A stretch of DNA of 64,000 nucleotides from Candidatus Nitrosocosmicus franklandus (GTDB taxonomy: Archaea > Thermoproteota > Nitrososphaeria > Nitrososphaerales > Nitrososphaeraceae): assembly GCF_900696045.1 (NCBI RefSeq), contig NZ_LR216287.1, forward strand, positions 496,001-560,000, read 5' to 3'. The notes beneath the pieces were generated by a model. The model was not told the DNA's origin and made no database searches. It saw only the letters and a list, made by a program, of their open reading frames with translations. Of this stretch, positions 6,349 through 35,562 are shown one piece after another (within the stretch, counting starts at the first letter, position 1; each line of letters opens with the position of its first letter). Both the position numbers and the translations under genes were made by a program.

Positions 6349-8115
6349 TTGTCCCGCGCAGATACTATTCTAGAACTGGTCAAGGCATCGTACTCGACTC
6401 AACCATCATATAAGAATCCAAGTTTCTACGGAGTTCCAGAAAATTATGACCAAGTAAAGACATTAAGAGACTTGTTAGAAATAAACTACAAGTACAGCTC
6501 TACTAAAAAACAGCTTAGAGAAAATTTAATCATTAGAATAAAAAATAATGAGAATCCCTTTGTTGGAATAATTGGTTTTGATGATACCGTGATTCCTGCT
6601 ATAAAGCGCGGTTTGCTTGCAGGACATGACATTTTGTTCGTCGGTCATATTGGACAAGGAAAAACAAGGTTAGCAGAACTGATATCAGAAAAGTTACTAT
6701 CACCGATCCCTATTGTAGAAGGAACCCTGACAAATGATATTCCAACTGAATTGCCATACACCCATCTTGTGGATTTGATTAACGGAAAAGAAATTGAGAA
6801 AAAAACACCTGAATTTCATGTTTCAAAAGACTGCGAAGAGTTGATTAGGAATAATGGACTGGATACCAGGATAAAGTGGGTTGACGGTAAACAAAGGTAC
6901 AGATACGTTCTGGCAACACCAGATATATCTGTAAAAGATTTGGTAGGTCAAATAGATGTTGTAAAAATAATCAAGAAAGGTATCGAATTGTACGATATTG
7001 ACTCTTATTCACCTGGATATTTACTACAATCCAGGTACGGTATTTTATGTTTAGATGAGTTACCCGTTCTCGATCCAAGAAAGCAAGTTACACTCTTAAG
7101 CGTATTACAGGAAGGAAGATTTACTACTGGAGCTTATCCTGTATTTTTCAAACCCGATGTTAAAATTATCGCAACCGCAAATCCTATGGATTATACACAT
7201 TCTGGAAAGATCATAGAGCCACTCGCCGATAGACTAAAAAGTCATATAGAAACTCACTATCCGAACACCATCCAGGATGAAACATTGATACTAATACAGG
7301 AAATGGATATGCTAAACAGAGACTACAAGAGTACTTTTCTACCTGTTTTTATTTTGGAGACGATAACAAGGATTTTTCAAAAAATCAGAAATCATCCAGA
7401 AGTAAATAGCGATAGAGGGGTAAGTGTTAGGTCAACAATTCACTCTTTAGAAGCTCTCATAGGAGAAGTGGAATGTAAAAGAGCTATTCACAACAACATA
7501 TTGGTAATTCCAAGATTCTCTGACCTTCAATGCATATTTCAATCGTCTAAATTTGAACTAGACGAAATCGAAGATACATCGGAGAATAGGATCGAATTTC
7601 TCAATAACATAATTAGAGAAGTTATGCAAGAGACTTCGCTGCATTTTTTCAATGGCTTTTTCAAGTCTCCTGACCTTGTTGCAATCAGAAACGATTTTAA
7701 AGACAAGTCATTTACTATAACTCAGAACCAGTACCAAATTCAAAATTTCAAATTGCAGGAGAAAGAACCTGATTCAAATACCAAAGCACTGTCAAATGGC
7801 AGATTACTCTATACAACCCAATTAAAGCAATTTCCCCAGTTAACGAATGTAGTAAAAAGAGCAGTCGAAGAATTAAGAAACAAACAAAATGATCTTATTA
7901 AGTTAGCCAAAGGTTTTGGAATAGAAAGAAATTTAGAATACATTGAATTTAAGAGCGAGTTTAACGAGAGTAATTTGGGTAATGATAATGATGATAAAGA
8001 GGAGGAGCTTTGGGCGGCTATGATTGAATTATTACTAGAGTACTTGAGATTCACGTCACCGCCTATCCTGGATAAAAAAGATGATACATTTGAGGGCACC
8101 ATTGGCAATGTTTGA
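6349..8115 (+). CDS. MoxR/magnesium-chelatase-I-like AAA+ ATPase
   Basis: AAA+ ATPase of the MoxR/ChlI group, which work as ring chaperones together with vWA-domain proteins. Walker A is GHIGQGKT (99-106), Walker B is GILCLDE (231-237), sensor 1 is ATANPMD (276-281), and PLADRL (291-296) fits the arginine-finger region. The stretch between Walker A and Walker B (about 125 residues) is long, leaving room for the family's helix insert and an added domain around 150-190. The C-terminal 200 residues are helical and poorly conserved. The vWA gene follows 168 nt downstream on the same strand, the classic MoxR-vWA arrangement. Start TTG at 6349 follows a TTTTTAAAG box. The substrate of the pair is unknown. 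Confidence 0.85.
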   Translation: MSRADTILELVKASYSTQPSYKNPSFYGVPENYDQVKTLRDLLEINYKYSSTKKQLRENLIIRIKNNENPFVGIIGFDDTVIPAIKRGLLAGHDILFVGHIGQGKTRLAELISEKLLSPIPIVEGTLTNDIPTELPYTHLVDLINGKEIEKKTPEFHVSKDCEELIRNNGLDTRIKWVDGKQRYRYVLATPDISVKDLVGQIDVVKIIKKGIELYDIDSYSPGYLLQSRYGILCLDELPVLDPRKQVTLLSVLQEGRFTTGAYPVFFKPDVKIIATANPMDYTHSGKIIEPLADRLKSHIETHYPNTIQDETLILIQEMDMLNRDYKSTFLPVFILETITRIFQKIRNHPEVNSDRGVSVRSTIHSLEALIGEVECKRAIHNNILVIPRFSDLQCIFQSSKFELDEIEDTSENRIEFLNNIIREVMQETSLHFFNGFFKSPDLVAIRNDFKDKSFTITQNQYQIQNFKLQEKEPDSNTKALSNGRLLYTTQLKQFPQLTNVVKRAVEELRNKQNDLIKLAKGFGIERNLEYIEFKSEFNESNLGNDNDDKEEELWAAMIELLLEYLRFTSPPILDKKDDTFEGTIGNV

Positions 8116-8282
8116 TAATAGAATTGCTCAATAGAATTAAGAACCATAACGATGAAAAAAATAGAAATATTTTTGTATAAAACTAGCAGGACTAAGAGAT
8201 CAGACCAGCGAAAAATTATTAATTATTTCAACAATATCAGAACAAACTCTACCGTCCAGCCACAAATCAAGGATTACTGTAA

Positions 8283-9998
8283 ATGAGAAAAACTATCTAC
8301 TACCCTAGGTCTATTGAGAAGAGCGATTCCACTAAGCGAGAAAGAGGAAGAGATAAAAGTAAAAGCGATTCTGACTATGACACAGAAATAATAGAACCGC
8401 CAGAATCCCTAAACAACAATCAAAGACAACAAAGCCAACATTCTAGTAGAAATGATCTTTTAAAGAGATTCTTTCCCGATATATTAAAAGCAATAGGAAA
8501 CAAGGCTATAAAGGAAAGCCCACCTACTTTACAAGAGCTCGAAGGATACCTCCAACAGTACGTTTCAGATTTAGAAAAGGCAAGCAACAATAGCAACAAG
8601 GATTATAGGAAATGGCGCGAGGGAACTTTTGACCCTACTAATAAAAATCAAAGCCACAATCATGGTATTATTACCTCAGGTCCGGGTTCTAATAATCAAA
8701 ACCCTCTCTCACCTCCATCTCTTCAGACCTCCCCAAAGTATTCCTCGTCATCAACAACATCAACAAATACTGCTTTTACTAATCAACAAAGTAGGCGATT
8801 TTTTGGAATAGACTTTAGAGGTACAGAAATGGATGGAAATAACCTTCCCATTGTTAGAGAGCTCATAAAAAAAGGCTATCTAACAGAAGACTCAAACAGA
8901 TGGATAAACAAGAAAGGATTCATGAAAATGGGAGAACAAATTCTTGTGGAAATAATAAAATCATTAAAGGCAGACAAGTTGGGAATGCATGAAACAATGT
9001 TTACTGGATACGGAAGCATTATTCAAGAAAGCTCAAGGAAGTACGAAGTTGGGAACGAGATTTCAAATATAAGCATAAATTCAACGATAAGAAACTTTCT
9101 GGATAGAGTTTATTCCAGTGGCACAGGTAAGGGGAAAAATATTCTAAATGCTGACAATGATGATGATGATGATGATGATGACAGAAAGAAAATTGAATTC
9201 CCTCTCGATATTACCTACGAAGATATCGAAATATATGATACTTTGGAAGAGATTCAGGTGTCAACAGTATACTGCATAGACCTGAGTTCCACAATGAAGT
9301 ACGCTTCAATGTACAGTGATTTAAGTAGAATAGAAGCTTCGAAGCGAGCTTTATGGAGTTTATACATTTTGAACAAAAAATTTTTTCCCTTGGATATAAT
9401 CCACACAATTGGATTTGGCTCCGTTGCCGCCCGAATAGAAGCTATTGATATTCCCTTTTTAAAAACATTTGAGCCTAATGCTGATTTTTTACATTATACA
9501 AACTATCAAGCTGCTTACAGGCTAGCTAAAAGGATATTGAAAAAGGATGGAGTGAAAAACAAAAGAATAGTGATGATTACCGATGGACATCCAAGTGCTT
9601 GTTTTATTAACGAAAAGAGTGAGCAGGATAGAATAATGAGGCAGAGACCATACTCTCATTTCTACAAACCTGATCCAAAAAGAATAGGCATGCAAGACTC
9701 GGAAAGTAAAAGGACAAAATTCGACATACATGAAAGCCATACGGTGTACTTGTGCTATAGATACAGACAAATAGACCAGTACATAGGCGAGCAAACAATA
9801 ATGGATGCAAAGAGAATAAAAAAAGATGGGATAGATATAGACACGATAATGGTAAGCGAAGAAGACACGTTACTGGATTTCGTAAATGAATTGGCAAAAT
9901 CGGTTGATGGAAAATCAATCTACATTAATCCAAGAGACATAGACAAAGTCCTGATCACAGACTATTTGTTAAATAAAAAGAAAATGATAAAAAAGTAA
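8283..9998 (+). CDS. vWA-domain protein, partner of the MoxR-like ATPase
   Basis: The C-terminal 250 residues form a von Willebrand A domain: the metal-ion-dependent adhesion site is seen as Asp333-Leu-Ser335-Ser-Thr337 after a hydrophobic strand (STVYCIDLSST), and the later metal-ligand Asp434 lies in VMITDGHPS. The N-terminal half (1-170) is charged and low-complexity, with Asn/Ser/Gln-rich stretches, and includes a short conserved-looking segment at 57-97. A run of eight Asp (293-300) is encoded by a GAT microsatellite just before the vWA domain. In this group the MoxR ATPase remodels or loads targets presented by the vWA protein, often metal-dependent enzymes; no target is visible here. 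ATG at 8283. Confidence 0.85.
   Translation: MRKTIYYPRSIEKSDSTKRERGRDKSKSDSDYDTEIIEPPESLNNNQRQQSQHSSRNDLLKRFFPDILKAIGNKAIKESPPTLQELEGYLQQYVSDLEKASNNSNKDYRKWREGTFDPTNKNQSHNHGIITSGPGSNNQNPLSPPSLQTSPKYSSSSTTSTNTAFTNQQSRRFFGIDFRGTEMDGNNLPIVRELIKKGYLTEDSNRWINKKGFMKMGEQILVEIIKSLKADKLGMHETMFTGYGSIIQESSRKYEVGNEISNISINSTIRNFLDRVYSSGTGKGKNILNADNDDDDDDDDRKKIEFPLDITYEDIEIYDTLEEIQVSTVYCIDLSSTMKYASMYSDLSRIEASKRALWSLYILNKKFFPLDIIHTIGFGSVAARIEAIDIPFLKTFEPNADFLHYTNYQAAYRLAKRILKKDGVKNKRIVMITDGHPSACFINEKSEQDRIMRQRPYSHFYKPDPKRIGMQDSESKRTKFDIHESHTVYLCYRYRQIDQYIGEQTIMDAKRIKKDGIDIDTIMVSEEDTLLDFVNELAKSVDGKSIYINPRDIDKVLITDYLLNKKKMIKK
9159..9180 (+). repeat. GAT trinucleotide run coding for poly-Asp
   Basis: About seven perfect GAT units inside the vWA gene encode an acidic tract at a domain boundary. 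Such a run can change length by slippage without breaking the frame. Confidence 0.8.
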
Positions 9999-18616: not shown

Positions 18617-18691
18617 GGGCTGGTGGTTCAGCCTGGTACGAACGTTCGATTCGCAATCGAAAGATCGCGGGTTCAAATCCCGCCCAGTCCA
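18617..18691 (+). tRNA. tRNA-Ala (anticodon CGC)
   Basis: A complete cloverleaf can be drawn: acceptor GGGCTGG pairs with CCAGTCC, D stem GTTC/GAAC, anticodon stem TTCGA/TCGAA around the loop TTCGCAA (anticodon CGC), 5-nt variable loop, T stem GCGGG/CCCGC, discriminator A. The G3:U70 pair, the classic alanine identity element, is present. The 3' CCA is not encoded and no intron is seen. The integrase gene just downstream suggests that the 3' end of this gene is an integration site. Confidence 0.95.
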
Positions 18692-18777
18692 CTTTTGGAA
18701 TTGTTATATGAAATCTCTCAGGCTCTTATATATATTAAGTTAATTTTAAGCACTATATAATCTTTATTATAGGAACT

Positions 18778-18956: not shown

Positions 18957-20084
18957 ATGCAGAAAATCGCGAGAGAAAACTCGCTAACTAAGCCGAGTAA
19001 AACCGAGTGGGTTGCTATGAACGTAAAGGTAAGACGAGAAGACATACCCATTCTTAATCAACGGCTCAAGTTACTGGGATTTGAAACTTTAGGACAACTA
19101 ACAAAAGATCTAATCAATGGAACATTTCCACATGTGACAGAAGATAGACAAATTACAAATCTTACAGATAATGTAGATAAATCAGGATTAAAATCTATAT
19201 TGGAGGGAGGTCACAACTCCGACTTTTACATGAAGGCTAACACCCAGGATATGTATGATTATTATCTGAATGTTCGTAAATTTCATAAAAACACCTGTAG
19301 AGATCTAGTTAGCTATTTTAAAAGATTCCGCGATGTTTTTTTTACTCAGCGAGTTGATGAAATTAGAAGCTGTACTCCTAGGGTTCGCTCAAAGATCATG
19401 GATTGCATGCGTAAATTTGGAGCCTATTATCTCTACAAATACAACAATGAAGAGTGTATTGATCTAGTAGAGAAAATTATTAGAAGACATAACCTTTCTG
19501 CAGGACAGACAGAACACGGTAAACTGTATATAGTTGATGATAGTTATATCGAAGAACGTTTAAAACAGTTATTTTCTATAGGAGAAGGAGAGATAGCCAC
19601 CATAATTAGATTTGGAATATTTTCGGGCTTGAGAGAAGATGAAATGCTTTATGTTTATAATAAAGATATCTGCCCAGATAAGTCAGGATGTTCTTGTTCA
19701 AAGCTGCATGTAATTGAAAAACCCAATGGAGTTTCTGTAGTTCTTATTCAGTGGCACAGGGGACATAAAAAATGTTATTTTACACTAGTTCCAACTAAAG
19801 TGCTAAAGGAATTCAAGTCAATGGATGATTTTGAATATAGGCCACATATACGTTCAGCTCATGAATATATGAAGGTTAAAACAAAGGATGACAAAATTAC
19901 TTTTATGTGGCTTAGAAAAGCACACTACAATGTAATGTGTAGAGTAATGAAACCGTTTGAGGCCAATGTGTTGGCAGGAAGAGCCAAATCAGTTGACGCC
20001 AAGCACTATGCAATGTATGAGTTGGATGAAATGTCACAGAAATACGCAGAAGCATGGAAAAAGTTTGATGTAAATATCAACTAG
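18957..20084 (+). CDS. SSV-type archaeal tyrosine recombinase (integrase)
   Basis: Tyrosine-recombinase features typical of archaeal integrases: the first catalytic Arg region is FGIFSGLREDEML (about 219-231), a basic hairpin segment WHRGHKKCYF follows, WLRKAHYNVM (about 318-327) fits the second Arg box, and the nucleophile Tyr lies in GRAKSVDAKHYAMYELDE (about 341-358), a pattern shared by SSV-like and thaumarchaeal integrases. The N-terminal 60 residues carry a possible arm-binding segment. It stands 265 nt from tRNA-Ala, the usual position for such an enzyme after site-specific insertion into the tRNA 3' end, and the gene is intact rather than split. An operator array precedes it. Confidence 0.88.
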   Translation: MQKIARENSLTKPSKTEWVAMNVKVRREDIPILNQRLKLLGFETLGQLTKDLINGTFPHVTEDRQITNLTDNVDKSGLKSILEGGHNSDFYMKANTQDMYDYYLNVRKFHKNTCRDLVSYFKRFRDVFFTQRVDEIRSCTPRVRSKIMDCMRKFGAYYLYKYNNEECIDLVEKIIRRHNLSAGQTEHGKLYIVDDSYIEERLKQLFSIGEGEIATIIRFGIFSGLREDEMLYVYNKDICPDKSGCSCSKLHVIEKPNGVSVVLIQWHRGHKKCYFTLVPTKVLKEFKSMDDFEYRPHIRSAHEYMKVKTKDDKITFMWLRKAHYNVMCRVMKPFEANVLAGRAKSVDAKHYAMYELDEMSQKYAEAWKKFDVNIN

Positions 20085-22932: not shown

Positions 22933-23292
22933 TTGACAGATTCTTATCAAATTGAAGGAGAAATCTGGATAGATGATAACAACAAGATCGACAATGTAAC
23001 AACATATGTACGAATCGAGGATACTAGTAGAGCCGATGCTCCTTCAAGAATGATAGCACAGAACATACTAAGAAATGTCAAGTTTAGGTCCGAAGGCGAT
23101 AAGAAGGTGCTGCAATTTCATATTAGCACTCCATTATCAAAGGATGATAAAACCTATACAATTAATGTTCATGTTGATATTAATGGAAACGGTAAAATTG
23201 ATCAAGGAGATTATATTAACATGGAAAGTTATCCTGTTCCCTTACAAAGGTCTAGACAAAAAATTGTAGTCAAAGTAAAACAAATAAGATAA
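22933..23292 (+). CDS. Small beta-rich protein resembling YbaY/YscW lipoprotein-type domain
   Basis: The pattern VTTYVRIEDTSRADAPSRMI, a middle strand KVLQFHIS and a YTINVHVDINGNGKID end resembles the YbaY/YscW-type domain (V-x-L-x-D-x-S-x-A-D-A-P). The usual signal peptide and lipobox are missing. DINGNGKIDQGD has the spacing of a calcium-binding loop. Start is TTG at 22933. It is convergent with the astacin gene, 38 nt away. The function is unknown; the resemblance is modest. Confidence 0.55.
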   Translation: MTDSYQIEGEIWIDDNNKIDNVTTYVRIEDTSRADAPSRMIAQNILRNVKFRSEGDKKVLQFHISTPLSKDDKTYTINVHVDINGNGKIDQGDYINMESYPVPLQRSRQKIVVKVKQIR

Positions 23293-23330: not shown

Positions 23331-25412
23331 CTAAAACGACCATCCATTGTTTGGTGCAGTTTGCCAAATATGCCACACTGCATGGTCTGCCCCTCTTGCA
23401 AATACTTCCAATCTACCATCAGCGTTTTGGGCTACTACAGGATCGCTTGTTATTATGCCACCTCGTGAGGCCCAGCCGTTAACCCAGCCGTTACTTGGTG
23501 CTGTTTGCCATGTATGCCAAAGCGCGTTGTCTGTTCCTCTTGCAAATACTTCCAATCTACCATCAGCGTTTTGGGCTACTACAGGATCGCTTGTTATTAT
23601 GCCACCTCGTGAGGCCCAGCCGTTAACCCAGCCGTTACTTGGTGCTGTTTGCCATGTATGCCAAAGCGCGTTGTCTGTTCCTCTTGCAAATATCTCTAAT
23701 CTACCATCTTTATTTCGGCCAACAGCGATATTGCTTGTTATCCTACCTCCCCTTGTAGCCCAGCCGTTAACCCAGCCACCGTTTGGAGCTACCTGCCATG
23801 TATGCCAAACTCCATTATCTGTTCCTCTTGCAAATACTTCCAATCTACCATCAGCGTTTTGGGCTACTACAGGATCGCTTGTTATTATGCCACCTCGTGA
23901 GGCCCAGCCGTTAACCCAGCCACCGTTTGGAGCTACCTGCCATGTATGCCAAAGCGCGTTGTCTGTTCCTCTTGCAAATATCTCTAATCTACCATCTTTA
24001 TTTCGGCCAACAGCGATATTGCTTGTTATCCTACCTCCCCTTGTAGCCCAGCCGTTAACCCAGCCACCGTTTGGAGCTACCTGCCATGTATGCCAAACTC
24101 CATTATCTGTTCCTCTTGCAAATACTTCCAATCTACCATCAGCGTTTTGGGCTACTACAGGATCGCTTGTTATTATGCCACCTCGTGAGGCCCAGCCGTT
24201 AACCCAGCCACCGTTTGGAGCTACCTGCCATGTATGCCAAAGCGCGTTGTCTGTTCCTCTTGCAAATATCTCTAATCTACCATCTTTATTTCGGCCAACA
24301 GAAATTTCACTCGTTATTTTTCCACCTCTGGTGCCCCAGCCGGCTCTCGGATACATAAGGTTAATTGCTGCTATATCACCGTCACTTAATCCATTTCGCT
24401 GACCTATTGCTGCACCACATGGAAGATCTGTTCTTAATACTTGGATAGTAGGCTGTCCGTTTTTTGAAAAAGCCGTTGCAGGATAATGCATAATTGAACA
24501 ATAATCATATTGCCCCACGTCATCTCCATCGGTAATGTGTTGATTGAAATTGTGTCTATTTGCGTCCTGAATATTTTCCCAATTGATTCTAATGAAAGTA
24601 TCTCTGTCCTCACGACTTTGCTCATGCCAACATCCTAGGGCGTGACAGATTTCATGTATGGTACTTCCTGTACCACAACCATCAGCTAATGAGATTATTT
24701 GTTTTCCTCCCTGCCTTCCCACATATGACCAACAGCCATCCCTTCGTTCAAATCTTATATAATCGGGGAAGGATGATGCATTACTACTATTTCTCATAAT
24801 AAACCGAACACCTGTTCGTGATTGTATGTGAGATACAGCATCTGTAACTCTTTGTTGATTGGGCAAGGCGCCATCAATCTCGTAAGGTACTGTGTTATTT
24901 GGCCACCGAAATTGACTTCCAGGTATTATAACCGCTCTATTTGTATCACCATCGTCGCTAGGTGTCGCATTTTCATTATCAGTAACTTTTATTGCGATAT
25001 CACCTTCAAAAATAGACACCCCATCAATGACAGAATATTCTACTTCTTTTTTGGTAAAGGTGTTACCAGATATAAATCCTTTTTTAGTATCGGTGCCTTC
25101 ACTAAACTCTCTGCAAATGCCTTCAGCGCTTTCCTTGTCCCGTACAGCTGAAGGAAAGTCATCTAGACCTGATGGCATTTTACCAATTTGATCCTCAGCT
25201 CCTTGACCCGATCTTTGACTCGTACTATCAGTATTGTCAACAATGTGAAAGTCATCTAGACCTGATGGCATTTTACCAATTTGATCCTCAGCTCCTTGAC
25301 CCGATCTTTGACTCGTACTATCAGTATTGTCAACAATGTGAAAGTCATCTAGACCTGATGGCATTTTACCAATTTGATCCTCAGAAACCTTCTTACCACT
25401 ATTATTTTCCAT
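23331..25412 (-). CDS. Astacin-family (M12A) zinc metallopeptidase with N-terminal 31-residue repeats and seven-unit propeller
   Basis: Zinc endopeptidase. The active site HEICHALGCWHE (253-264) has three His ligands and the catalytic Glu254; the Met-turn CSIMHYP is at 305-311. The pro-region carries FEGD (135-138), the FxGD aspartate switch that keeps astacin zymogens latent. The C-terminal 337 residues are seven units of 48 residues (GWASRGG, DGRLEVFARGTDN, VWHTWQ), a pattern of PLL/tectonin-like beta-propellers that bind carbohydrate. The first 86 residues hold two complete and one partial 31-residue units (EDQIGKMPSGLDDF). No signal peptide is visible. I start at the ATG at 25412 because TATA-like TTTATAAATA lies about 25 nt upstream; a longer frame begins at 25460. 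Units at the DNA level are almost identical, so duplication is recent. Confidence 0.9.
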   Translation of the reverse strand: MENNSGKKVSEDQIGKMPSGLDDFHIVDNTDSTSQRSGQGAEDQIGKMPSGLDDFHIVDNTDSTSQRSGQGAEDQIGKMPSGLDDFPSAVRDKESAEGICREFSEGTDTKKGFISGNTFTKKEVEYSVIDGVSIFEGDIAIKVTDNENATPSDDGDTNRAVIIPGSQFRWPNNTVPYEIDGALPNQQRVTDAVSHIQSRTGVRFIMRNSSNASSFPDYIRFERRDGCWSYVGRQGGKQIISLADGCGTGSTIHEICHALGCWHEQSREDRDTFIRINWENIQDANRHNFNQHITDGDDVGQYDYCSIMHYPATAFSKNGQPTIQVLRTDLPCGAAIGQRNGLSDGDIAAINLMYPRAGWGTRGGKITSEISVGRNKDGRLEIFARGTDNALWHTWQVAPNGGWVNGWASRGGIITSDPVVAQNADGRLEVFARGTDNGVWHTWQVAPNGGWVNGWATRGGRITSNIAVGRNKDGRLEIFARGTDNALWHTWQVAPNGGWVNGWASRGGIITSDPVVAQNADGRLEVFARGTDNGVWHTWQVAPNGGWVNGWATRGGRITSNIAVGRNKDGRLEIFARGTDNALWHTWQTAPSNGWVNGWASRGGIITSDPVVAQNADGRLEVFARGTDNALWHTWQTAPSNGWVNGWASRGGIITSDPVVAQNADGRLEVFARGADHAVWHIWQTAPNNGWSF
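23340..24345 (-). repeat. Seven tandem 144-bp propeller-coding units
   Basis: Seven units of 144 bp encode the propeller. Two alternating unit types (SRGGIITSDP and TRGGRITSNI) form a higher-order 288-bp period, so paired units were duplicated together. There are no unique spacers between units. Confidence 0.9.
25158..25394 (-). repeat. Tandem 93-bp repeat coding for the astacin N-terminus
   Basis: The phrase GTCATCTAGACCTGATGG recurs at 25158, 25251 and 25344, exactly 93 bp apart, giving two full and one partial 31-residue unit. Copies appear identical by eye over their full shared length. Confidence 0.92.
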
Positions 25413-27646
25413 AACATGGAAATAGTAAATGTATTTATAAATATTTACACAAATTTTCAAATGATTAAGACGGTAAGATCTGTTTATCTATTACTCAATA
25501 CTTACTAATTTCTAATTTTAGAAAAGAAAGTTGTTTTGGACAACTACTCTTAAGTACCTAATAACTCGTTAATTCTTGGTAAATATTGATCAGAGATACA
25601 AAAGAATGACAGGATCATCAGAATGAATCACGATAAATCATAGAAATATAAAATATTAAAGAATCTCAATCTACTGTTCAGGACCTCTAGTTGTGTTTTT
25701 ACTAACAAAGACGTTCTCTGTGCTCATTTAATGGAAATTAGATTTTTGACAGGTAATTATATGAATATAAAATACTATTGACTACACCTAAATAACAAAC
25801 GGTATCCTATGAATAAATTAGAACAATAGCAATAATATTTAGTTCTTGTCTATAAAATCATATTAACTTGTGAAGGGTATAACCAACTTTTGTTGTTTTA
25901 ACAGATTCCTAATTTAAGTAAAGGACCATAATAAGAAGTAATTGAAAGTATCTGTTTATTAGATGATAACAGTAGAAGGTAATAACTTTATTGAAAATTC
26001 ACAAATGCATTTGAATAAACTAAAGATGGACTTATAGACGATAAAAAAGAATGACGATTAATGGTTGGATACCATTTTTCTACATTCAATATAGAAATGT
26101 TTGCTTATACAACGTCGAGTTTTTCGAAATGACTACAATAATTATAAAACATTGTTTAGTTTCTATATTTAATTTTGAGGATAATAAAGTTAAGAATGAT
26201 TTATTGAAATATGTTATTGCCTTTCCGTATTCTTGTTAAATAATTACCTCAATAAGAAAAATAAGTTAAAGTATATCGTATGAATATCTAACGATACTTT
26301 AATATGGAATTTTAATTGAACAGTTAAAGATTTAGTCCTTAATAGAAATTAAATGTATTTCATTTATTCAGTAATTGATATACCTCTGATATTACAAAAA
26401 AATTTTGGATTGTGTGATTATGATTGCTTTATGGTTAAAACCATTTTTTATTATGATTGTGACAATTCTTCAAGATTTATCGATTCCATAGACAAGTACA
26501 TACGTTAGAATAAAATTATGAAATATGTTTTTTCAAGATGCAAAGCGTATATTAGTCATCTTTGAATTGTCAATTTGAAGGGATCGCTCCAGAGTATCTT
26601 TAGTCAGACCTACTAAATTAACCATAAAATTAAGAGTATCACAGCTAAATTATAGAAAACAGAATTAGTTATCCTTGAATTAGCTTTTTCTTGCTGATAA
26701 AGTTCTTGAAGTAATTTCATGGCACCGCAGAGGGGTTGCAACATGTTTATCATGAAAACAATAGTGTTAGATTTGCAGTTCTTGATCGAACAAATTTTAT
26801 AGATAAGTTAGTAAATTCAACAATATTGGGTCACTTTATTAATCAAGATTTCTAAATCTATACCCCTCCAAAACATACTATAGCTTCATTATATCTTCCT
26901 AAAACAAATGATGAAACTCGTTTATCATACCAAGTGGGTAAAATACTAGGTCTTACCAATAGCATTTTCAAATTCTCGAATTTCTTCACTAAATTATTTT
27001 AGACGAATAAGAGAGTGTCTTTAGTTCTTTTATTCATAGGTAAAATGTGGTTTTGTATTTAAGGATCTCCTGAAGAAATTGAGGGAATGATTAATTTTTG
27101 TAACATATCATTCTAAGATCCAGATTAGGTTAAGTGATTGCATTCCTTTAATGTTTTGTCGATTCCAAATCATTACATGGCTTCTTCTTATTCATTTCGA
27201 TTAATATATTTTAGAAACTCCTGTTATTCAACATGTGTGCACAATTAGAATTCAGCCAAATTCACTTATCGAAGTATAGAATAGCTTCTTTGTAATCCCT
27301 TAAATGATAAAGAGCATTCTCTGATTGGATCAAGGATCGGCAAGGTTCGATTTCAATTCTTTTGTTTTTTAATTTACTTTGTATTCAAGGTTAAAATCTT
27401 GATCGATAAAAACGTCACATAGTAATGATGAATATAGCCTATAACAGTAAGGTCATTGATAGCAGATGAAAGCAAATGCCAGAGTTTAACTCATGAATGT
27501 ATTGCTGAATGCAAATCTGTATGTGATTTTTATTCCAAATTTCTATCTAAGCTGTATCAGCATGGTATATCGTTCATCAAATTAAACGATCGGATATCAT
27601 AAGATTCTAGTTGAAAATGGGATGTGGGTTTATAATTAATTCTTTC
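25413..27646. other. Long AT-rich stretch without intact genes
   Basis: About 2.2 kb with no convincing gene. A 62-codon frame at 26051-26239 has no recognisable features. A plus-strand stretch at about 26718-27110 reads as sensible protein (for example GTAEGLQHVYHENNSVRF and then LSYQVGKILGLTNSIF) with few stops, and may be a decayed gene of unknown type. Confidence 0.4.
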
Positions 27647-28787: not shown

Positions 28788-30452
28788 TTATATACCTACT
28801 GAATTATTTAGAGCTTCAGCTGTAAGCTTTCCGACCTTGCCATCAGTTTGAAGTTTATTACCATTTATGTCTTTGTGAGTCTTTTGAAATTCTACAACCG
28901 CAGCATGTGTTTTATTACCAAATTTCCCATCTATCCCATCATGATTGGGTCCAAAATTCCCAAGATCATATCCAAGTTTTTTTAAAATGGTTTGAAGATT
29001 TTTAACCAGCATAGACCTAGGATCGTTTAAAACTAGCGGACCACTTCCACCATTGGAACGATTCCTCAGTTCATCTGGAGGTAGTGGGGTAAGAACAACC
29101 GTTTTTTTTGATATCTTATCGTATGCGGCTTTTGCCTGAATTATACCCGCGCCCAAAAAAATCTTCAAATCAGACCCGCCTTTGTTTTTTGCAGTAGTCA
29201 TTAGAACATTCTTGACTTCACCCTGATTAACTGATGGGGATTTCTGTTTCAGTAATGCAATAACACCTGCAGCTATTGGAGTTGCAGCTGAAGTTCCACT
29301 ATCACTATCGAAGAAGCCTGTGAAATGGGTGATGGAAGCAAAGTCTGGTTTATTAGGATCCAGGGCGGCGGGTCCACAACTGCTGTAACCAACATATTGT
29401 TCATTCTTGTTAACGGCTGCAACCGTAATTACTTGCTTATGTCCGTTTGCACCCCAAATACTTTTTCCTTGACCAGTATCGGATCCACATCTGTTATCTG
29501 CACATGGATTGCCCCCACAATTTCCAGCAGCAAAAAGAACGATTATCCCTTCATTAATAGCTTCTATCACTTTCCTAGTTAGAAAGTGATCGGGGTTTGT
29601 AGTATAGTTTGGATCCCATTCTTTCTGGTAATAGCCCCAGCTATTAGTAATGATGTGCGGAGTACCATCTAACTTATGTCTATTTATAGCCCAGTCGAAA
29701 TTTTTATATGCACTTGACAATGTGTCCCCAGTTATCCTAAGGTCATAAAGCTTTGCATCAGGAGCAATTCCCAGAACATCCGTTGCGCACATATTCCCGT
29801 GCCAGTCCCAATCTACACCAGTGGTACCCCAATCAGACGTCGATCCATCGATTACATTCGGTATGAGCTTTCCTGGCCAATTTGTATCGTTTGTATCCTT
29901 AGATTTTATAGGTCTACCCACTGCTGTAATTCCCCCATCCTGAACGGCAACGACAATATTTTGTCCCTTAATTCCATCTGCATGAATTTCATGTACCCCA
30001 AGATACTTTGCCACATCGTGAATAGTTCCCTTTGGAGTGCCTGGATCACAATCACATGGAGGTATAGGACATAACCCCCTGTCGACTGAACTTATCTGAA
30101 TGAAATCGTCATCTTTATTTTCAAAGGGTCTGATTCCAGCGGTGTCCTCCCAAACCTTGACCACATTGGGTTGAGCTTCGAGATTCTTTATCTTATTTCT
30201 ATCAATCCTTCCCCTAACAATTACAACATCCATTCCCCTGGAATCTAGGCTACGGGCCATATCCGGGGTCGAAGTTACAGGAATAGCTCCATATTCAGTA
30301 TCTAATTCAAATCCATGTTGCATTAGATCTCTTGTCAATGTCAGATCACGCGAGTCAGTATTTTTCGGTTTAGTATATTCTACAACTACCTGGACACGAT
30401 TTTTTTCATCTATTACCAGTTTCTTTTTATCAGAGTTATCTGGATTATCCAT
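28788..30452 (-). CDS. Subtilisin-like serine protease (S8) with C-terminal peptidoglycan-binding domain
   Basis: Subtilase with the full triad: Asp172 in VAVQDGG, His218 in WHGNMCATD and Ser388 in SGTSAATP, with oxyanion Asn311 in FAAGNCGG. Residues about 18-102 resemble the I9-type pro-domain (ends PNVVKVWEDT), so it is likely made as a zymogen. The tail (about 467-550) is a peptidoglycan-binding-1-like domain: LGYDLGNFGPNHDGIDGKFG and a following KTHAAVVEFQKTH. Archaea lack murein, so this domain may bind another polymer, or target a bacterium. The N-terminus (MDNPDNSDKKKL) has no signal peptide. A TATA-like TTTTTAAAATA lies 25-35 nt before the ATG, arguing that the start is right. Confidence 0.92.
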   Translation of the reverse strand: MDNPDNSDKKKLVIDEKNRVQVVVEYTKPKNTDSRDLTLTRDLMQHGFELDTEYGAIPVTSTPDMARSLDSRGMDVVIVRGRIDRNKIKNLEAQPNVVKVWEDTAGIRPFENKDDDFIQISSVDRGLCPIPPCDCDPGTPKGTIHDVAKYLGVHEIHADGIKGQNIVVAVQDGGITAVGRPIKSKDTNDTNWPGKLIPNVIDGSTSDWGTTGVDWDWHGNMCATDVLGIAPDAKLYDLRITGDTLSSAYKNFDWAINRHKLDGTPHIITNSWGYYQKEWDPNYTTNPDHFLTRKVIEAINEGIIVLFAAGNCGGNPCADNRCGSDTGQGKSIWGANGHKQVITVAAVNKNEQYVGYSSCGPAALDPNKPDFASITHFTGFFDSDSGTSAATPIAAGVIALLKQKSPSVNQGEVKNVLMTTAKNKGGSDLKIFLGAGIIQAKAAYDKISKKTVVLTPLPPDELRNRSNGGSGPLVLNDPRSMLVKNLQTILKKLGYDLGNFGPNHDGIDGKFGNKTHAAVVEFQKTHKDINGNKLQTDGKVGKLTAEALNNSVGI

Positions 30453-31156
30453 AATATGATTCTTAGTGTAGAACTATTTTAAAAAGATATACGATTTTGT
30501 GTACTTTATTATAGTATTTCCACTATTATTCAATACTACTCTTAAATATCATAATACAACATTTAAATCAAATATTATTATCGTGTTAATAGCAGGCATT
30601 TAATACCAAATTATAGCAAATGCTAAAGTTGTATAAAACCGCCTTATTTTTTTTTGTCCTTAAATTGGTCTATACAATTTATCCAAATACTATATGGATA
30701 TTTGCGGAACACACACAAAACGATAGGTAAAACGAAGCAAAATTACCCAGCTCAATCATTTAAAAATCCAACAAACTTAATTGTCGTAAACAATCCTATT
30801 TATCAAAAGCACAAGCAAAAAAGAAACATAATATCCTAGATTCAATCCACTTTTAACCAGACTCAAAACAAAATAAGAATTTTACATCAATGTATTAAGA
30901 ATCTTTGTAGTAATAAACTTTCGAAACTTGATACAAAAAACTATATTTTTGTTCTTCTTTATTATTCAACTCTTTTTCTTGACCAGTAAAGCTCGGAATG
31001 AAGAAACATAATCAATAGTACTAATTGAAGGTGATAAATATTACTTAGGAAATATCCTTCTTTACTTGGTTGAAAATTTACGATTCTATTAATGGAGCCG
31101 AAGATGTATGCTACCGAGTTACTAACTACAGGTTTTGGAAATTTAAATTAAATTTA
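30453..31156. other. Intergenic stretch in the accessory island
   Basis: About 700 nt, strongly AT-rich; no gene seen. A 61-codon frame at 30654-30839 is not supported by any motif. Confidence 0.4.
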
Positions 31157-31993
31157 TTATTTTAATTGACCTAAAGGCACGTCCTTAATACTTGCTACTC
31201 CTTCCAGTTGAGGTATTTGACGAAACCTCTCTCTCATCGCATTTCTAATATTTTTCATTAATTCATATCTAGATAATCGGTTACCTGAGTTGCGTAATTC
31301 ATTACATAAATTCCATGTAAATGCGCCATGATAATCATTTTCAATTTTGGCATCAGCACTTGTTTGATCAGATTGACATCCCGTCATTAATACTATGTTG
31401 GGAGGCATTCCCTCTTCTTTTAAAGTATCTGCCAATCCATGATTTTCAACTGAACGACTAGATAATTCACGGTTAATTTCGCGTGGAGGAGGAATATATC
31501 TGGGAATTTCATCTAGACTCAATAATCTTAGTCCAGTACCACTATGACAAGTGTCTAAGTAGACTTCACAAAGACATTTCTCCGGTATGGTCGAAAGTTT
31601 TTTACCGAAATCATCATCATCTATCACAGTATTTAACGACCAATTTCCTTCCTCTACATTTAGATTATATGTTGTAAAAACCTCATCTTTTAGGTCGTCA
31701 GTTTCATCTAGTGATACATCAGGTATCTGTGTACCGTGAGCTGCTAAATGTATGACTATATAATTACATTCACCGTCTTGTGCTTTTTTAATTAGCGAAT
31801 CTATATTTTTATAAATATTTTCCTTCGTTGCCTCTGAATCCTGGAGTACTGTTATATCAGAATCTTTGAAATTCAAGTAATCTTTTAATACTGAAGACAT
31901 ATTTTTTGTATCGTTAATACACCCGCGTAAAGTGTAGTGGGGAAAAAATTGGTATTGGTTGATTCCTATAGTTAGGGCCTTTCTGTTATTCAT
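31157..31993 (-). CDS. Caspase-like (C14/metacaspase-type) cysteine peptidase
   Basis: Cysteine peptidase of the caspase fold. The catalytic His86 lies in IVIHLAAHGTQ and the nucleophile Cys149 in VYLDTCHSGTG, with the family opening ALTIGINQYQ and GCINDTKNM (about 6-32). The acidic DETDDLKDE segment (96-104) between strands is typical of metacaspase-like proteins. The domain fills almost the whole 278 residues, so the effector or sensor part is probably in the small upstream partner, whose stop lies 24 nt before this start. Prokaryotic relatives often act in cell-death or conflict systems. There is no signal peptide. Confidence 0.9.
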   Translation of the reverse strand: MNNRKALTIGINQYQFFPHYTLRGCINDTKNMSSVLKDYLNFKDSDITVLQDSEATKENIYKNIDSLIKKAQDGECNYIVIHLAAHGTQIPDVSLDETDDLKDEVFTTYNLNVEEGNWSLNTVIDDDDFGKKLSTIPEKCLCEVYLDTCHSGTGLRLLSLDEIPRYIPPPREINRELSSRSVENHGLADTLKEEGMPPNIVLMTGCQSDQTSADAKIENDYHGAFTWNLCNELRNSGNRLSRYELMKNIRNAMRERFRQIPQLEGVASIKDVPLGQLK

Positions 31994-32017
31994 TTTATTA
32001 TTTTGTTTGAGATGTTC

Positions 32018-32377
32018 TTAGAATAGACTCGAAATCGCTTTCCAAGCTTTTTTGGCCGTACTTTGGACTACTGGATTCTTTGCGATTTTATAGGCTGTAT
32101 GTGCACCCGCAATCAAACCTGCAATGGCGATGCGTTCTTGATCCTCCGAAGAAATATTTTCTGACGTCAGATCCCTAGATCCTTGCTGAGCGTCATTCTT
32201 AATTTGCTCAAAAATGGCACGAACTTCTTGGTCTTGTTCTGGTGAAATATCACGTGAATCCGAACCTTTGAAATAAGCCAAGAGCTTATCAACTAAGTCT
32301 GTATGTTGCTTTACATATTCCCATCCTTCTTTAAGAAAACGTTCTTGATCCTGTGAGACATCTGTTCCTGTTGACAT
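32018..32377 (-). CDS. Small helical protein co-transcribed with the caspase-like peptidase
   Basis: A 119-residue protein with no family that I recognise. The N-terminal two thirds is charged and helical. The C-terminal 40 residues are moderately hydrophobic and amphipathic (IAIAGLIAGAHTAYKIAKN), possibly membrane-seeking. It lies 24 nt upstream of the caspase gene on the same strand, so it is the first gene of a two-gene transcript. A TATA-like TTTAAATA occurs about 25 nt before the ATG. It could be an activator, adaptor or substrate of the peptidase. Confidence 0.6.
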   Translation of the reverse strand: MSTGTDVSQDQERFLKEGWEYVKQHTDLVDKLLAYFKGSDSRDISPEQDQEVRAIFEQIKNDAQQGSRDLTSENISSEDQERIAIAGLIAGAHTAYKIAKNPVVQSTAKKAWKAISSLF

Positions 32378-33291
32378 GTGATATTCTCAACAATATCCAA
32401 CTATTTAAATTTATACCCAATATCTCAAAGTATCGGGACAAAAATATTTATTCGATATTACTACATTATGATATCTTGATCAGTTATTGTGTAAAGATTC
32501 ATTTGTATTTCTATTTTATTTTTCAAATAACTTTCGATCAATTAAATCTATTTTGACTAATCATTGTTTGTTAAATATGTTGTAATACAGTTTGAATTGC
32601 GCTACAGCACTGTCAGTAGGTATATCTAGTGTACCTGTACAAATAGACAAACAATGAGATCTTTTCGATGTATCTTAAGTTCATTTTGTATCTAAGGTGT
32701 TATTCTAAAAGTTAACAATGTGGACAGACATCAATAATTGTCTTTTCGCTTATACACCCTATAAAAAAAGTAATTTCCAGAATTCTGGGAGGCATTACTC
32801 CAAGAATTCTGGAATATTATGATCGAATAAGAAACTTTTGAATTCATCGCTAAATGTCGCTATCAGAGGGTGAAACAACTATGATGTTGAGTCCAAATCA
32901 ATGCGTGCTAAAGTGCAGCGATTGAAGTTAGAAAAAAAATTCTTCTTCCTTTCATTTCTTAGGTATTTGACACGTGATCTAGATAAGAAATTGGGCAAAG
33001 TAGAAATTATAACAAAATACGTATCAAGAGAAATTCTTCTGCATCTATTGCTAATTCTCAATCCAAATTAGTTTGTAATATTATATTGAAATGTTTGATA
33101 CAGTAAAACTATCCTGAAAATAACGCTAGAATCAATCACATATTTCCTCTAACCATCTTTTCATTAGCTTTTATATGAAAAATTGATTTTATGTTAAGAT
33201 GATGAATGTAATCAAAAACGGTTTTAGAACTACTCCCAGGACATGAATAATAAATGATTTGTGTTACTTTAGCTTTAGACATATTGTGTCC
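32378..33291. other. Intergenic stretch with a long hairpin
   Basis: No convincing gene in about 900 nt. It holds a strong inverted repeat at 32775-32814. A minus-strand 60-codon frame at 32879-33061 is basic and has no recognised family. Confidence 0.4.
32775..32814. repeat. Perfect 12-nt inverted repeat with extended stem
   Basis: TTCCAGAATTCT at 32775-32786 pairs perfectly with AGAATTCTGGAA at 32803-32814. The stem extends inward after one mismatch by GGAG/CTCC, leaving a six-base loop GCATTA. It lies far from any coding end, so it is not obviously a terminator. Confidence 0.85.
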
Positions 33292-33918
33292 TTAACCATT
33301 CTTTTGCAAATCTGTGTCTTGTGAATTGGTTGTTTCTATTAACTGCACTTGTTGAATCAATTCAACATGTGCCCTTGTATTGTTTTGTAATAATTCCAGC
33401 ATCTCTTTTAGATCTGCAATCTCCCTATGAGGTAGTGAATTATCAGCCTTATAATCATAATCAGTTATAGATTCATAGGCACGATAGTGAGACTTGAATA
33501 CCATGTCAACTACAGATAAATTTGCAACTGCCTTACTTATAGCATCTTGGGACTTGTAAAAGAACATTGAAATTAGAACACCCATACCAATTCCTCCACT
33601 AAACAAACTCCAACCGTCTGATGTCCCTTTATACCAAGCATAAGTAATTGCGTTCGCAATAAGGATCGCACCTATAATTACCAACATTATGTTTATGATT
33701 GTCTTCATTTCGAATGCTTTTTTGGAATCATTCAAGATATCTTCAAAGTGTTTATCCATCTTTTTCCAATAACCTTCCGCGTCTTTCGATGGACGGGCAG
33801 CAATTGACCGTTTGACATCATTTAGTAACTCCTCATCCACGGCACGTGTCTTTGTGGAAGAATCAAAGGTTGTTTTCATTGCTGTGTGACTTTTGTCATC
33901 TTCTACATTATTTGCCAT
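33292..33918 (-). CDS. Two-transmembrane protein resembling TRADD-N-associated membrane proteins
   Basis: A charged helical N-terminus (about 1-70) precedes two adjacent membrane segments (IINIMLVIIGAILIANAITY and SGGIGMGVLISMFF) followed by a conserved-looking cytosolic segment (FYKSQDAISKAVANLSVVDMVFKSH) and a coiled-coil-like tail. This order is like the two-TM domain that accompanies TRADD-N-type domains in prokaryotic conflict systems (resemblance by architecture only). A TATA-like TATTTTTATAATA lies about 25 nt before the ATG. The neighbouring caspase makes a conflict role attractive, but a chance association cannot be excluded. Confidence 0.6.
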   Translation of the reverse strand: MANNVEDDKSHTAMKTTFDSSTKTRAVDEELLNDVKRSIAARPSKDAEGYWKKMDKHFEDILNDSKKAFEMKTIINIMLVIIGAILIANAITYAWYKGTSDGWSLFSGGIGMGVLISMFFYKSQDAISKAVANLSVVDMVFKSHYRAYESITDYDYKADNSLPHREIADLKEMLELLQNNTRAHVELIQQVQLIETTNSQDTDLQKNG

Positions 33919-34372
33919 ATATTTGCATTAATGAAATGTCATATTATAAAAATACATAGGTCTCAAGAATATTGTTAAATTGGGACAAAAATAATTAATA
34001 AAGATAAGTTTTCACAATTGACTCCATAACCTAAGTCAAAATGTAGGCTCTAGTTTTAAATATGGATTGATTTCGATTGTGTTTGTTATTACTTAGCCTA
34101 TTACTATTTGGACTTTCATCCTCAGTAACAATAACCACTGCCGAATGATATAATAAAGTGACCAAAACCAAGAAATATTGTCACAGTAACTGGCATTCTC
34201 ATAATAATAATGATACTAACAACAAATAACAAACAGATGTCTTATTAGAGCAGGTTAATAGAACTATCATCAACAGAACCAATACATCCTTTTCTAGTCT
34301 ATTATGATTGGGAGCTATGTTGGCAGATTGCATTCCCAGAGAAGATAAACAGAGCAATGCAATATAACGTAT

Positions 34373-34388
34373 ACATGTGATCACATGT
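34373..34388. promoter_or_regulatory. 16-nt perfect palindrome upstream of the papain-like gene
   Basis: ACATGTGATCACATGT is a perfect palindrome. The same ACATGTG core recurs as CACATGTG at 34596-34603, 12 nt before the TATA-like TTATATAAAA of the peptidase gene. The sites could be bound by one regulator. Confidence 0.4.
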
Positions 34389-34615
34389 TATCATTAAATG
34401 GAAATGACTTTATTGCATATCAATCTGTATCGTTATGGCATATACCTCGAGAGGATCCCATGCTCCAATTGCAAAATCTTTGCAAATAGTATTTTATAGA
34501 TGATACTATGTATTCAAATATTCGATCTCCATAAATTGACAGATATTGGCATCATCTCTACATATCGACCAATTGTGTAACAAAAAGTATTGGCCCACAT
34601 GTGTCAGCAAATTCC

Positions 34616-34625
34616 TTATATAAAA
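34616..34625 (+). promoter_or_regulatory. TATA-like promoter of the papain-like gene
   Basis: TTATATAAAA lies 17-26 nt before the ATG at 34642. This spacing would place the transcript start at or near the start codon, as expected for a leaderless archaeal gene. Confidence 0.6.
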
Positions 34626-34641
34626 CATCGGTGGCACAAAA

Positions 34642-35562
34642 ATGAGAAAAATGAGTCAAACTACAATTAATGGAAAAGGAACAGGATGGATCCCAGATTA
34701 TCCTAGTATAAGAGACTATACCTTAGGTGATAAAGAGGTCAAGCCATTATTTTCGGAGGTAGGTGTAGACACCACTCAATCAACGGCAAAGAGCAAAAAG
34801 CGTTCTCTACCAACAAAAGCAGACGAAATAAGACCGTATTGTTCTCACATTGAAGATCAGGAAACCCTAGGTTCCTGTACTGCACAAGCAGGAGTAGGAA
34901 TGATAGAGTATTTTGAAAGAAAGGCATTTGGAAAGCACATAGATGCCTCTAGTCTATTTCTTTATAAAGTAACAAGGAATCTTTTGCGGCTTCGAGGAGA
35001 TACAGGGGCATACCTACGAAGTACAATGGGAGCATTGAGATTATTTGGCGTCCCGCCAGAGGAGTATTGGAAATACGATATATCTAAATTTGATAGAGAA
35101 CCACCCGCGTTTTGTTATGCTTTTGCTAGTAACTATCAGGCAATTAATTATGTCCGCCTTGACACACCAAACATCGCCAAGGAAACTCTTCTATATACAA
35201 TAAAGGACAATCTATCAAAGGGAATTCCAGCTATGTTTGGTTTTACCGTTCATGAATCAATTGAGCAGGCTTCTAATGCCAACTCTTCGACAAAAGGTAA
35301 TATTCCATTTCCCTGCAGCACAGAAAGAGTACTTGGAGGACATGCGGTAATGGCGGTAGGGTACGATGACAACCTAAAAATAGAAAATAAAGGTTGCAGT
35401 GAAGAGACTATAGGAGCTATCCTTATACGTAATTCTTGGGGCACAAGTTGGGGCGATCACGGCTATGGCTATTTGCCCTATGAGTATGTGCTGAGGGATC
35501 TTGCAGTAGATTGGTGGACAATAATCAAAGCCGATTGGGTGGATACCGGTCACTTTGGTTAG
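34642..35562 (+). CDS. Papain-like (C1A) cysteine peptidase
   Basis: The catalytic Cys79 lies in QETLGSCTAQAG, His234 in LGGHAVMAVGYDD and Asn264 in LIRNSWGTSWGDHGYGYLPY, with the glutamine of the oxyanion hole upstream (Gln73). The opening GWIPDYPSIRDYTLG matches prokaryotic C1A peptidases, which lack the large pro-region of plant and animal cathepsins. No signal peptide is present. ATG at 34642 (or the ATG three codons later) lies 17-26 nt from a TATA-like box. Confidence 0.92.
   Translation: MRKMSQTTINGKGTGWIPDYPSIRDYTLGDKEVKPLFSEVGVDTTQSTAKSKKRSLPTKADEIRPYCSHIEDQETLGSCTAQAGVGMIEYFERKAFGKHIDASSLFLYKVTRNLLRLRGDTGAYLRSTMGALRLFGVPPEEYWKYDISKFDREPPAFCYAFASNYQAINYVRLDTPNIAKETLLYTIKDNLSKGIPAMFGFTVHESIEQASNANSSTKGNIPFPCSTERVLGGHAVMAVGYDDNLKIENKGCSEETIGAILIRNSWGTSWGDHGYGYLPYEYVLRDLAVDWWTIIKADWVDTGHFG

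Follow-up and report, generated by a model that had tools for sequence, protein, structure and literature searches.

A leaderless astacin zymogen with a PLL-type propeller and a linked small partner gene in the archaeon Candidatus Nitrosocosmicus franklandus

The window is the whole stretch of DNA that was analysed, 64,000 nucleotides from Candidatus Nitrosocosmicus franklandus (family Nitrososphaeraceae), whose genome is a single contig of 2.84 Mb. On the minus strand of the window an open reading frame runs from an ATG at 25412 to a stop at 23331 and encodes 693 residues. From the N-terminus these form EDQIGKMPSGLDDF repeats, a FEGD pro-segment, an astacin domain and seven blades of 48 residues, and a small gene on the plus strand converges on the astacin (Table 1). 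Two plus-strand frames over the repeat arrays, at 23347-24402 and 25172-25414, were rejected as genes: they are mirror frames of the repeats. An earlier sequence-only reading had described the protease and its two arrays, and the observation as made there is confirmed overall, with a correction on blade identity.

Table 1. Positions of the features at and around the astacin gene; all are in the window except the last row, which gives locus identifiers.
Feature	Position	Strand	Basis or remark
tRNA-Ala(CGC) gene	18617-18692		then integrase
Archaeal phage-type integrase (PF16795)	18957-20084		after tRNA-Ala
Partner gene, 119-aa leaderless protein of predicted AspS/YscW fold	22933..23292	+	convergent with astacin, 38 bp between stop codons
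EF-hand-like loop DINGNGKIDQGD in partner, predicted Ca2+ site	23176..23211	+	pattern match
Leaderless pro-astacin with C-terminal PLL-type propeller, 693 aa	23331..25412	-	Pfam: Astacin 1.9e-51, DUF346 1.3e-15
Seven 48-aa PLL/DUF346 blades, A B A B A' B' B''; predicted fucose/O-methyl-sugar lectin	23334..24329	-	TRF, alignment, residue mapping
Astacin (M12A) catalytic domain, residues 169-354	24351..24908	-	Pfam and PDB matches
Zinc-binding motif HEICHALGCWHE, residues 253-264	24621..24656	-	sequence
FEGDI motif, aspartate switch of pro-segment, residues 135-139	24996..25010	-	sequence; motif role as in PMC9848320
Tandem array at the N-terminus: 2.48 copies (100% identical) of a 93-bp unit; lineage-specific, acidic and predicted to be disordered	25154..25384	-	repeat detection and model
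~95-aa WFTHSW domain	L030 7342-7677; L032 7493-7777; L034 7452-7730		

The Pfam Astacin match spans positions 1-186 of the 189 in the model, and in the PDB the domain matches zebrafish hatching enzyme (3lqb), pro-meprin and others (E 1e-36). The zinc motif of family M12A, HExxHxxGxxHExxR, is found as HEICHALGCWHEQSR at residues 253-267, and the Met-turn SxMHY as SIMHY at residues 306-310. Within the pro-segment E136-G137-D138 are invariant in an alignment of 16 homologues; the role of FEGD-type motifs as aspartate switch is taken from PMC9848320. Further, the modelled pro and catalytic part matches crayfish pro-astacin (3lq0, TM 0.74 on target). Its motifs, among them a complete zinc site and the aspartate switch, identify the window protein as the zymogen of an astacin and a predicted protease. 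It represents a known enzyme family in a new form, joined to a lectin fold that is likewise known.

The lectin part covers residues 362-693. The seven 144-bp propeller units first read at the 3' end are all there, the last consisting of 45 codons and the stop. They are W-motif (DUF346) blades, as in the PLL family, and match Photorhabdus PLL2 at 5e-131 and PHL at 3e-116, so that what had been called a target-recognition propeller is borne out as a PLL-family lectin. Sugar contacts were mapped on PHL numbering (residue numbers from PMC5584973) with the alignment checked residue by residue, and the PHL positions coincide exactly with the aligned sequence. Equivalents of R91, E93, H105, W107, Q and W199 are retained in all seven blades and that of T194 in six. 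The outer-strand W, equivalent to PHL W214, lies within blades 1-6; a GW ahead of blade 1 could supply it for blade 7. Both sets of PLL contact residues, those of the hydrophobic and those of the polar sites, are retained. The Photorhabdus lectins bind fucosides and O-methylated sugars (PMC12203525), and from the retained contacts we infer that the window propeller may bind fucose or O-methyl sugars as well. In the full-length AlphaFold model the propeller did not close (mean pLDDT 63.9, low confidence; rmsd about 18 A to PLL), and its geometry was therefore left unused.

The same lectin also occurs on a different metalloprotease: in another Nitrososphaeraceae genome (L009, from G036, 2-1021) a leaderless matrixin has an N-terminal peptidoglycan-binding domain and C-terminal PLL blades. 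Further, a plasmid of the soil bacterium Paenibacillus amylolyticus (L077, 4500-6296) carries a metalloprotease, annotated as matrixin, that aligns with the window protein in its astacin part as well as in its propeller part.

In the blade array TRF also reports a 288-bp period with 95% matches. The AB-AB higher-order pattern of the sequence-only reading is therefore real, and the latest amplifications copied a two-blade unit. That reading also held the copies to be nearly identical in DNA, which is right for the N-terminal array and for blades 2 and 4 (100% in each case), while over all blades identity ranges from 64 to 100%: A-type blades share 86-94% among themselves, A and B blades about 74-85%, and for the last blade against any other the value is 64-83%. 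The G+C content is 48% in the propeller, 40% in the protease part and 35% in the window, which is compatible with an acquired domain. Its DNA indicates that the propeller arose by recent amplification of a single blade or of a pair. Between A and B blades synonymous and non-synonymous codon differences are equal in number, 11 of each, which gives no hint of positive selection. The rapid change that had been proposed finds no support as diversification; the data speak for recent amplification and homogenisation.

Amplification recurs in this group of enzymes. In Actinopolymorpha (L048) FG-GAP blades are up to 99% identical, and in the astacin of the Nitrosocosmicus genome G005 two copies of a different 48-aa repeat are identical over 123 bp. 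This leaderless astacin (L003, 2-418) carries the unrelated repeat (RLSEYNQAGAVSLVSLIRF...) at its C-terminus, where it gives no Pfam match and the contig ends inside it.

Copies identical in DNA, such as blades 2 and 4 or those of the N-terminal array, are places where assemblies can err. The repeats could then be an artefact of assembly or of neutral slippage, in an ordinary domesticated protease for which the length of the array has no meaning. We give this almost no credence: the frame remains open, there are exactly seven blades, as many as in the solved PLL lectins, and sugar-contact residues are retained in each blade. Recent in-place amplification of near-identical blades is a known process, common in propellers in nature (PMC9218822).

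At the 5' end the 93-bp period and the full identity of the copies stand, as first read; full 31-residue units, in contrast, number just two. Three identical EDQIGKMPSGLDDF cores are present, and the array amounts to 2.48 copies, which accounts for the difference. The sequence-only reading suggested a surface or target-recognition protein, from which the 31-residue units could be set free as peptides when the protease is activated. Since they precede the pro-segment, activation would take them off, and some bacterial leaderless astacin loci have, between the astacin and the partner gene, a short acidic ORF with repeated GPPPxxL or EGEL. However, the repeats are absent from every homologue inspected, an outcome that the reading itself had named as speaking against its N-terminal half, and a search across 61 relatives gave, besides astacins, just chance matches in unrelated proteins. 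Residues 1-100 are predicted to be disordered (AlphaFold pLDDT 26-34), and the repeats have no identifiable processing site or conserved cleavage signal. We therefore regard a peptide cut loose on activation as very improbable and treat the repeats as a young, lineage-specific disordered spacer.

Short ORFs of this acidic kind, in which (D)GPPPxxL or EISLEGEL motifs recur, were seen between leaderless astacin and partner at L025 (2877-3269), L040 (7168-7638) and L030 (7099-7338). They are possibly peptide precursors or tags. The 31-residue unit resembles the bacterial GPPPxxL peptides too weakly for a relationship to be called.

No hydrophobic leader was found by inspection and hydropathy, either from the ATG at 25412 or from an upstream TTG at 25460. 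A signal peptide is a feature of animal astacins, not of the catalytic family M12A. Homologues in genome contigs were recovered with an alignment of archaeal copies, and their signal peptides were called by inspection and hydropathy rather than by SignalP; 2-3 of the 27 astacins classed below as other have unclear N-termini. Archaeal relatives in Nitrosocosmicus, other Nitrososphaeraceae and Nitrosopumilus are leaderless too, and so are relatives in Streptomyces, Gordonia, Sphingomonas, Rubrivivax, Thiobacillus, Sulfurimonadaceae, Acidobacteria and Chloroflexota MAGs. Obvious leaders were seen in the astacins of Legionella, Myxococcus, Aquimarina and others. Neither signal peptide nor anchor is present in the window protein or in the related leaderless FEGD astacins, which argues against the surface protein that had been suggested. 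No related phage record was found. In bacteria a domain of ~95 aa (WFTHSW...PVVDGxAQIEW) without Pfam match is fused to the C-terminus of leaderless astacins and also stands alone beside them.

The pair lies in a stretch that begins with tRNA-Ala and an integrase gene. After the integrase follow genes for ParB, a response regulator, the astacin and its partner, a leaderless subtilase, caspase-like and papain-like proteins and an IS240-type transposase. Between two shared flanking genes the interval is about 24 kb in the window, 21 kb in the Nitrosocosmicus genome G006 and 12 kb in G003, so the region is variable, and the DNA from tRNA-Ala to about 39.6 kb has the appearance of an integrated region of variable length. 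As to a second attachment site, no repeat of at least 15 bases of the tRNA occurs within the window, and the right boundary was not found. Elsewhere in the window, at 6349-9998, adjoining genes resemble a MoxR-type AAA ATPase and a von Willebrand A domain protein.

At 28788-35562, with long gene-poor gaps between them, lie three more leaderless peptidases: an S8 subtilase with a peptidoglycan-binding domain, a C14 caspase-like and a C1 papain-like protein. With such neighbours, none of which has an evident signal peptide, the astacin could be a cytosolic protease of cell death or defence, its propeller sensing an invader or a damaged envelope from inside; in conflict systems that have been published, caspase-like effectors are coupled to sensors with a lectin fold (PMC8195603). 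However, the peptidase genes examined contain no STAND/NTPase switch or effector-associated domain, the astacin pair is found elsewhere without the other peptidases, and the disulphide cysteines of the astacin suggest an oxidising place of action. We consider such a role improbable.

The conserved neighbour, which the sequence-only reading missed, is the most informative feature of the locus. The model of the partner has a pLDDT of 93.6 (AlphaFold), and its sole strong match in the PDB is AspS (5wec; E 7e-6, TM 0.73), the alternative type II pilotin of Vibrio cholerae. Pfam YscW matches the partner at 9e-4 with a score of 20.0, under the cut-off of 22.6. A strict EF-hand-like loop pattern is found in 11 of 16 aligned partners, against 0.1% of shuffles. 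On the basis of the model, the partner is predicted to have the AspS/YscW pilotin fold with an EF-hand-like loop. A lipoprotein signal is absent from the window partner and not evident in the aligned partners; lacking leaders, these proteins are not lipoprotein pilotins. The model gave no fold match to a known protease inhibitor.

To a very large degree the partner follows one type of astacin. With an HMM built from the window copy and the copy in G036 and then iterated, a partner homologue turned up close to nearly all leaderless astacins, whereas astacins with a leader had none nearby. Counting loci with adequate flanks, the partner is present at 22 of 25 leaderless loci versus none of the 27 other astacins (Fisher p about 9e-12, a value that is too small because the loci are related). 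The tree backbone is weak and leaves a single origin of the leaderless clade possible, so the locus counts are not phylogenetically independent, and gains of the partner are not countable. Three leaderless astacins (L043, which is G022, L047 and L068) have no detectable copy. The partner-linked leaderless FEGD astacins span seven phyla of bacteria and archaea. In most of them the partner lies downstream on the same strand; it lies upstream in L031 and L042, is divergent in L028 and convergent in the window.

Whole-genome searches, in which genomes were not selected for the partner, are a stronger test of linkage than the locus counts. Among 200 Streptomycetaceae the search gave four partner genes, each at a distance of 0.4-1.4 kb from one of four leaderless astacins with FEGD. 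These genomes contain eight further full-length astacins, all without a partner, and those inspected lack FEGDI and mostly have clear leaders. Of 61 relatives in the Nitrososphaerales exactly two genomes have the partner, in both cases beside an astacin, and a further 35 genomes gave 17 partner matches, 16 of them at the astacin locus. From the locus counts and the whole-genome searches together, gene linkage indicates that the partner is dedicated to the leaderless FEGD type, although a few of its members do without it. Thus, judged by position in the genome, a small gene is specifically linked to a leaderless protease, as in the protealysin-emfourin pair. Protealysin is itself leaderless.

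Emfourin is the operon-encoded inhibitor of protealysin, which is called intracellular (PMC9505478). By analogy, we give roughly even weight to the proposal that the two convergent genes of the window work as one module, in which a leaderless astacin zymogen is paired with a small keeper protein of its own. The proposal builds on the zymogen motifs, the lectin domain, the absent leader, the gene linkage and the predicted partner fold. The astacin would be made in the cytoplasm as an inactive zymogen with Asp138 on the zinc, and there the partner would bind it as inhibitor or chaperone, as emfourin does for protealysin. Outside the cell the partner would let go, perhaps through a change in calcium. 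The protease might leave by lysis or by an unrecognised export route: no export route was found, and contractile injection was rejected as a means of delivery, since the genome has no contractile sheath gene. It can be added that PLL2 and PLL3 are found in the extracellular fraction though Photorhabdus PLLs have no signal peptide (PMC12203525). The propeller would then anchor the protease to glycans that carry fucose or O-methyl groups, on neighbours or in extracellular polymer, and there the loss of the N-terminal part (the repeats and the pro-segment, to about residue 168) would activate it.

For the partner a role as chaperone is close to as likely as one as inhibitor, because the AspS/YscW fold is known from pilotins, which are peptide-binding chaperones, and no inhibitor fold was matched. 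The AspS/YscW pilotin family binds a short peptide of its client secretin. In the same way the leaderless partner could be an export or folding chaperone and no inhibitor, binding a short segment of the astacin and delivering it to an exporter. The pilotin AspS is the only strong solved fold match, the YscW match falls just under the cut-off, and the gene changes its place and direction relative to the astacin from locus to locus, as would suit a diffusible helper. However, we know of no secretin or type II/III system in ammonia-oxidising archaea, the conserved EF-hand-like loop would be left unexplained, and a one-to-one linkage of small protein and protease is more typical of inhibitor or immunity pairs. 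On balance we find a pure export or folding chaperone possible but rather unlikely.

If the partner of the keeper module is an inhibitor, it would found a new class of inhibitors of metzincins, one that calcium might switch. A wider proposal is made tentatively, at clearly less than even confidence: leaderless FEGD astacins and the AspS-fold protein with its calcium loop may constitute an undescribed protease-keeper pair (inhibitor or immunity) common to bacteria and archaea. The astacins of such pairs would swap C-terminal glycan-binding modules, often freshly amplified (PLL propeller, ricin trefoil, FG-GAP propeller, 48-aa repeat), and thereby re-aim the protease at the surfaces of neighbours. 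With its freshly amplified propeller the window gene also shows clearly how a domain for sugar targeting is being rebuilt within a single archaeal genus.

Prokaryotic astacins have been treated as scattered borrowings by animal-associated microbes (PMC9848320). The occurrence of leaderless astacins with a linked partner in free-living bacteria and ammonia-oxidising archaea points instead to an established prokaryotic lineage with its own helper. A literature search found nothing that links astacin with YscW/AspS and, for astacins in ammonia-oxidising archaea, nothing beyond the mention of a Nitrosopumilus sequence in PMC9848320, a review in whose text the word propeller does not occur. In the literature searched the linkage of astacin and partner appears to be undescribed.

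Compared with known systems, the window pair shares with protealysin and emfourin an intracellular metalloprotease and a small protein encoded beside it (PMC9505478). However, protealysin belongs to family M4 and the window protease to a different one, the partner has a predicted AspS/YscW fold with an EF-hand-like loop, and inhibition is here predicted by analogy. Like crayfish astacin, the meprins and myroilysin, all M12A, the window protein has a complete HExxHxxGxxHE, the Met-turn, FEGDI and a mature start near RWPN. In contrast to these members it has no signal peptide but a lectin propeller and a linked partner gene, and its host is a soil archaeon, while the prokaryotic hosts stressed in PMC9848320 are animal-associated. 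The protein of Streptomyces albipurpureus (L028) is likewise a leaderless FEGD astacin with seven DUF346 blades and an adjoining AspS-fold partner; there the blades are 69-83% identical in DNA with a period of 49 aa, N-terminal repeats are absent and the partner lies upstream in divergent orientation.

With the Photorhabdus lectins PLL and PHL the propeller shares seven 48-aa W-motif blades and both sets of sugar contacts, and the PLLs, like the window protein, lack a signal peptide. In contrast to these lectins the window propeller is fused to a protease, and its blades were amplified independently and recently in their own gene, up to 100% identity in DNA. Finally, near-identical blades amplified in place also characterise the highly repetitive beta-propellers of Pereira and Lupas (PMC9218822, a text in which PLL and thaumarchaea are unmentioned), whereas in the window gene the last amplified unit is a pair of blades.
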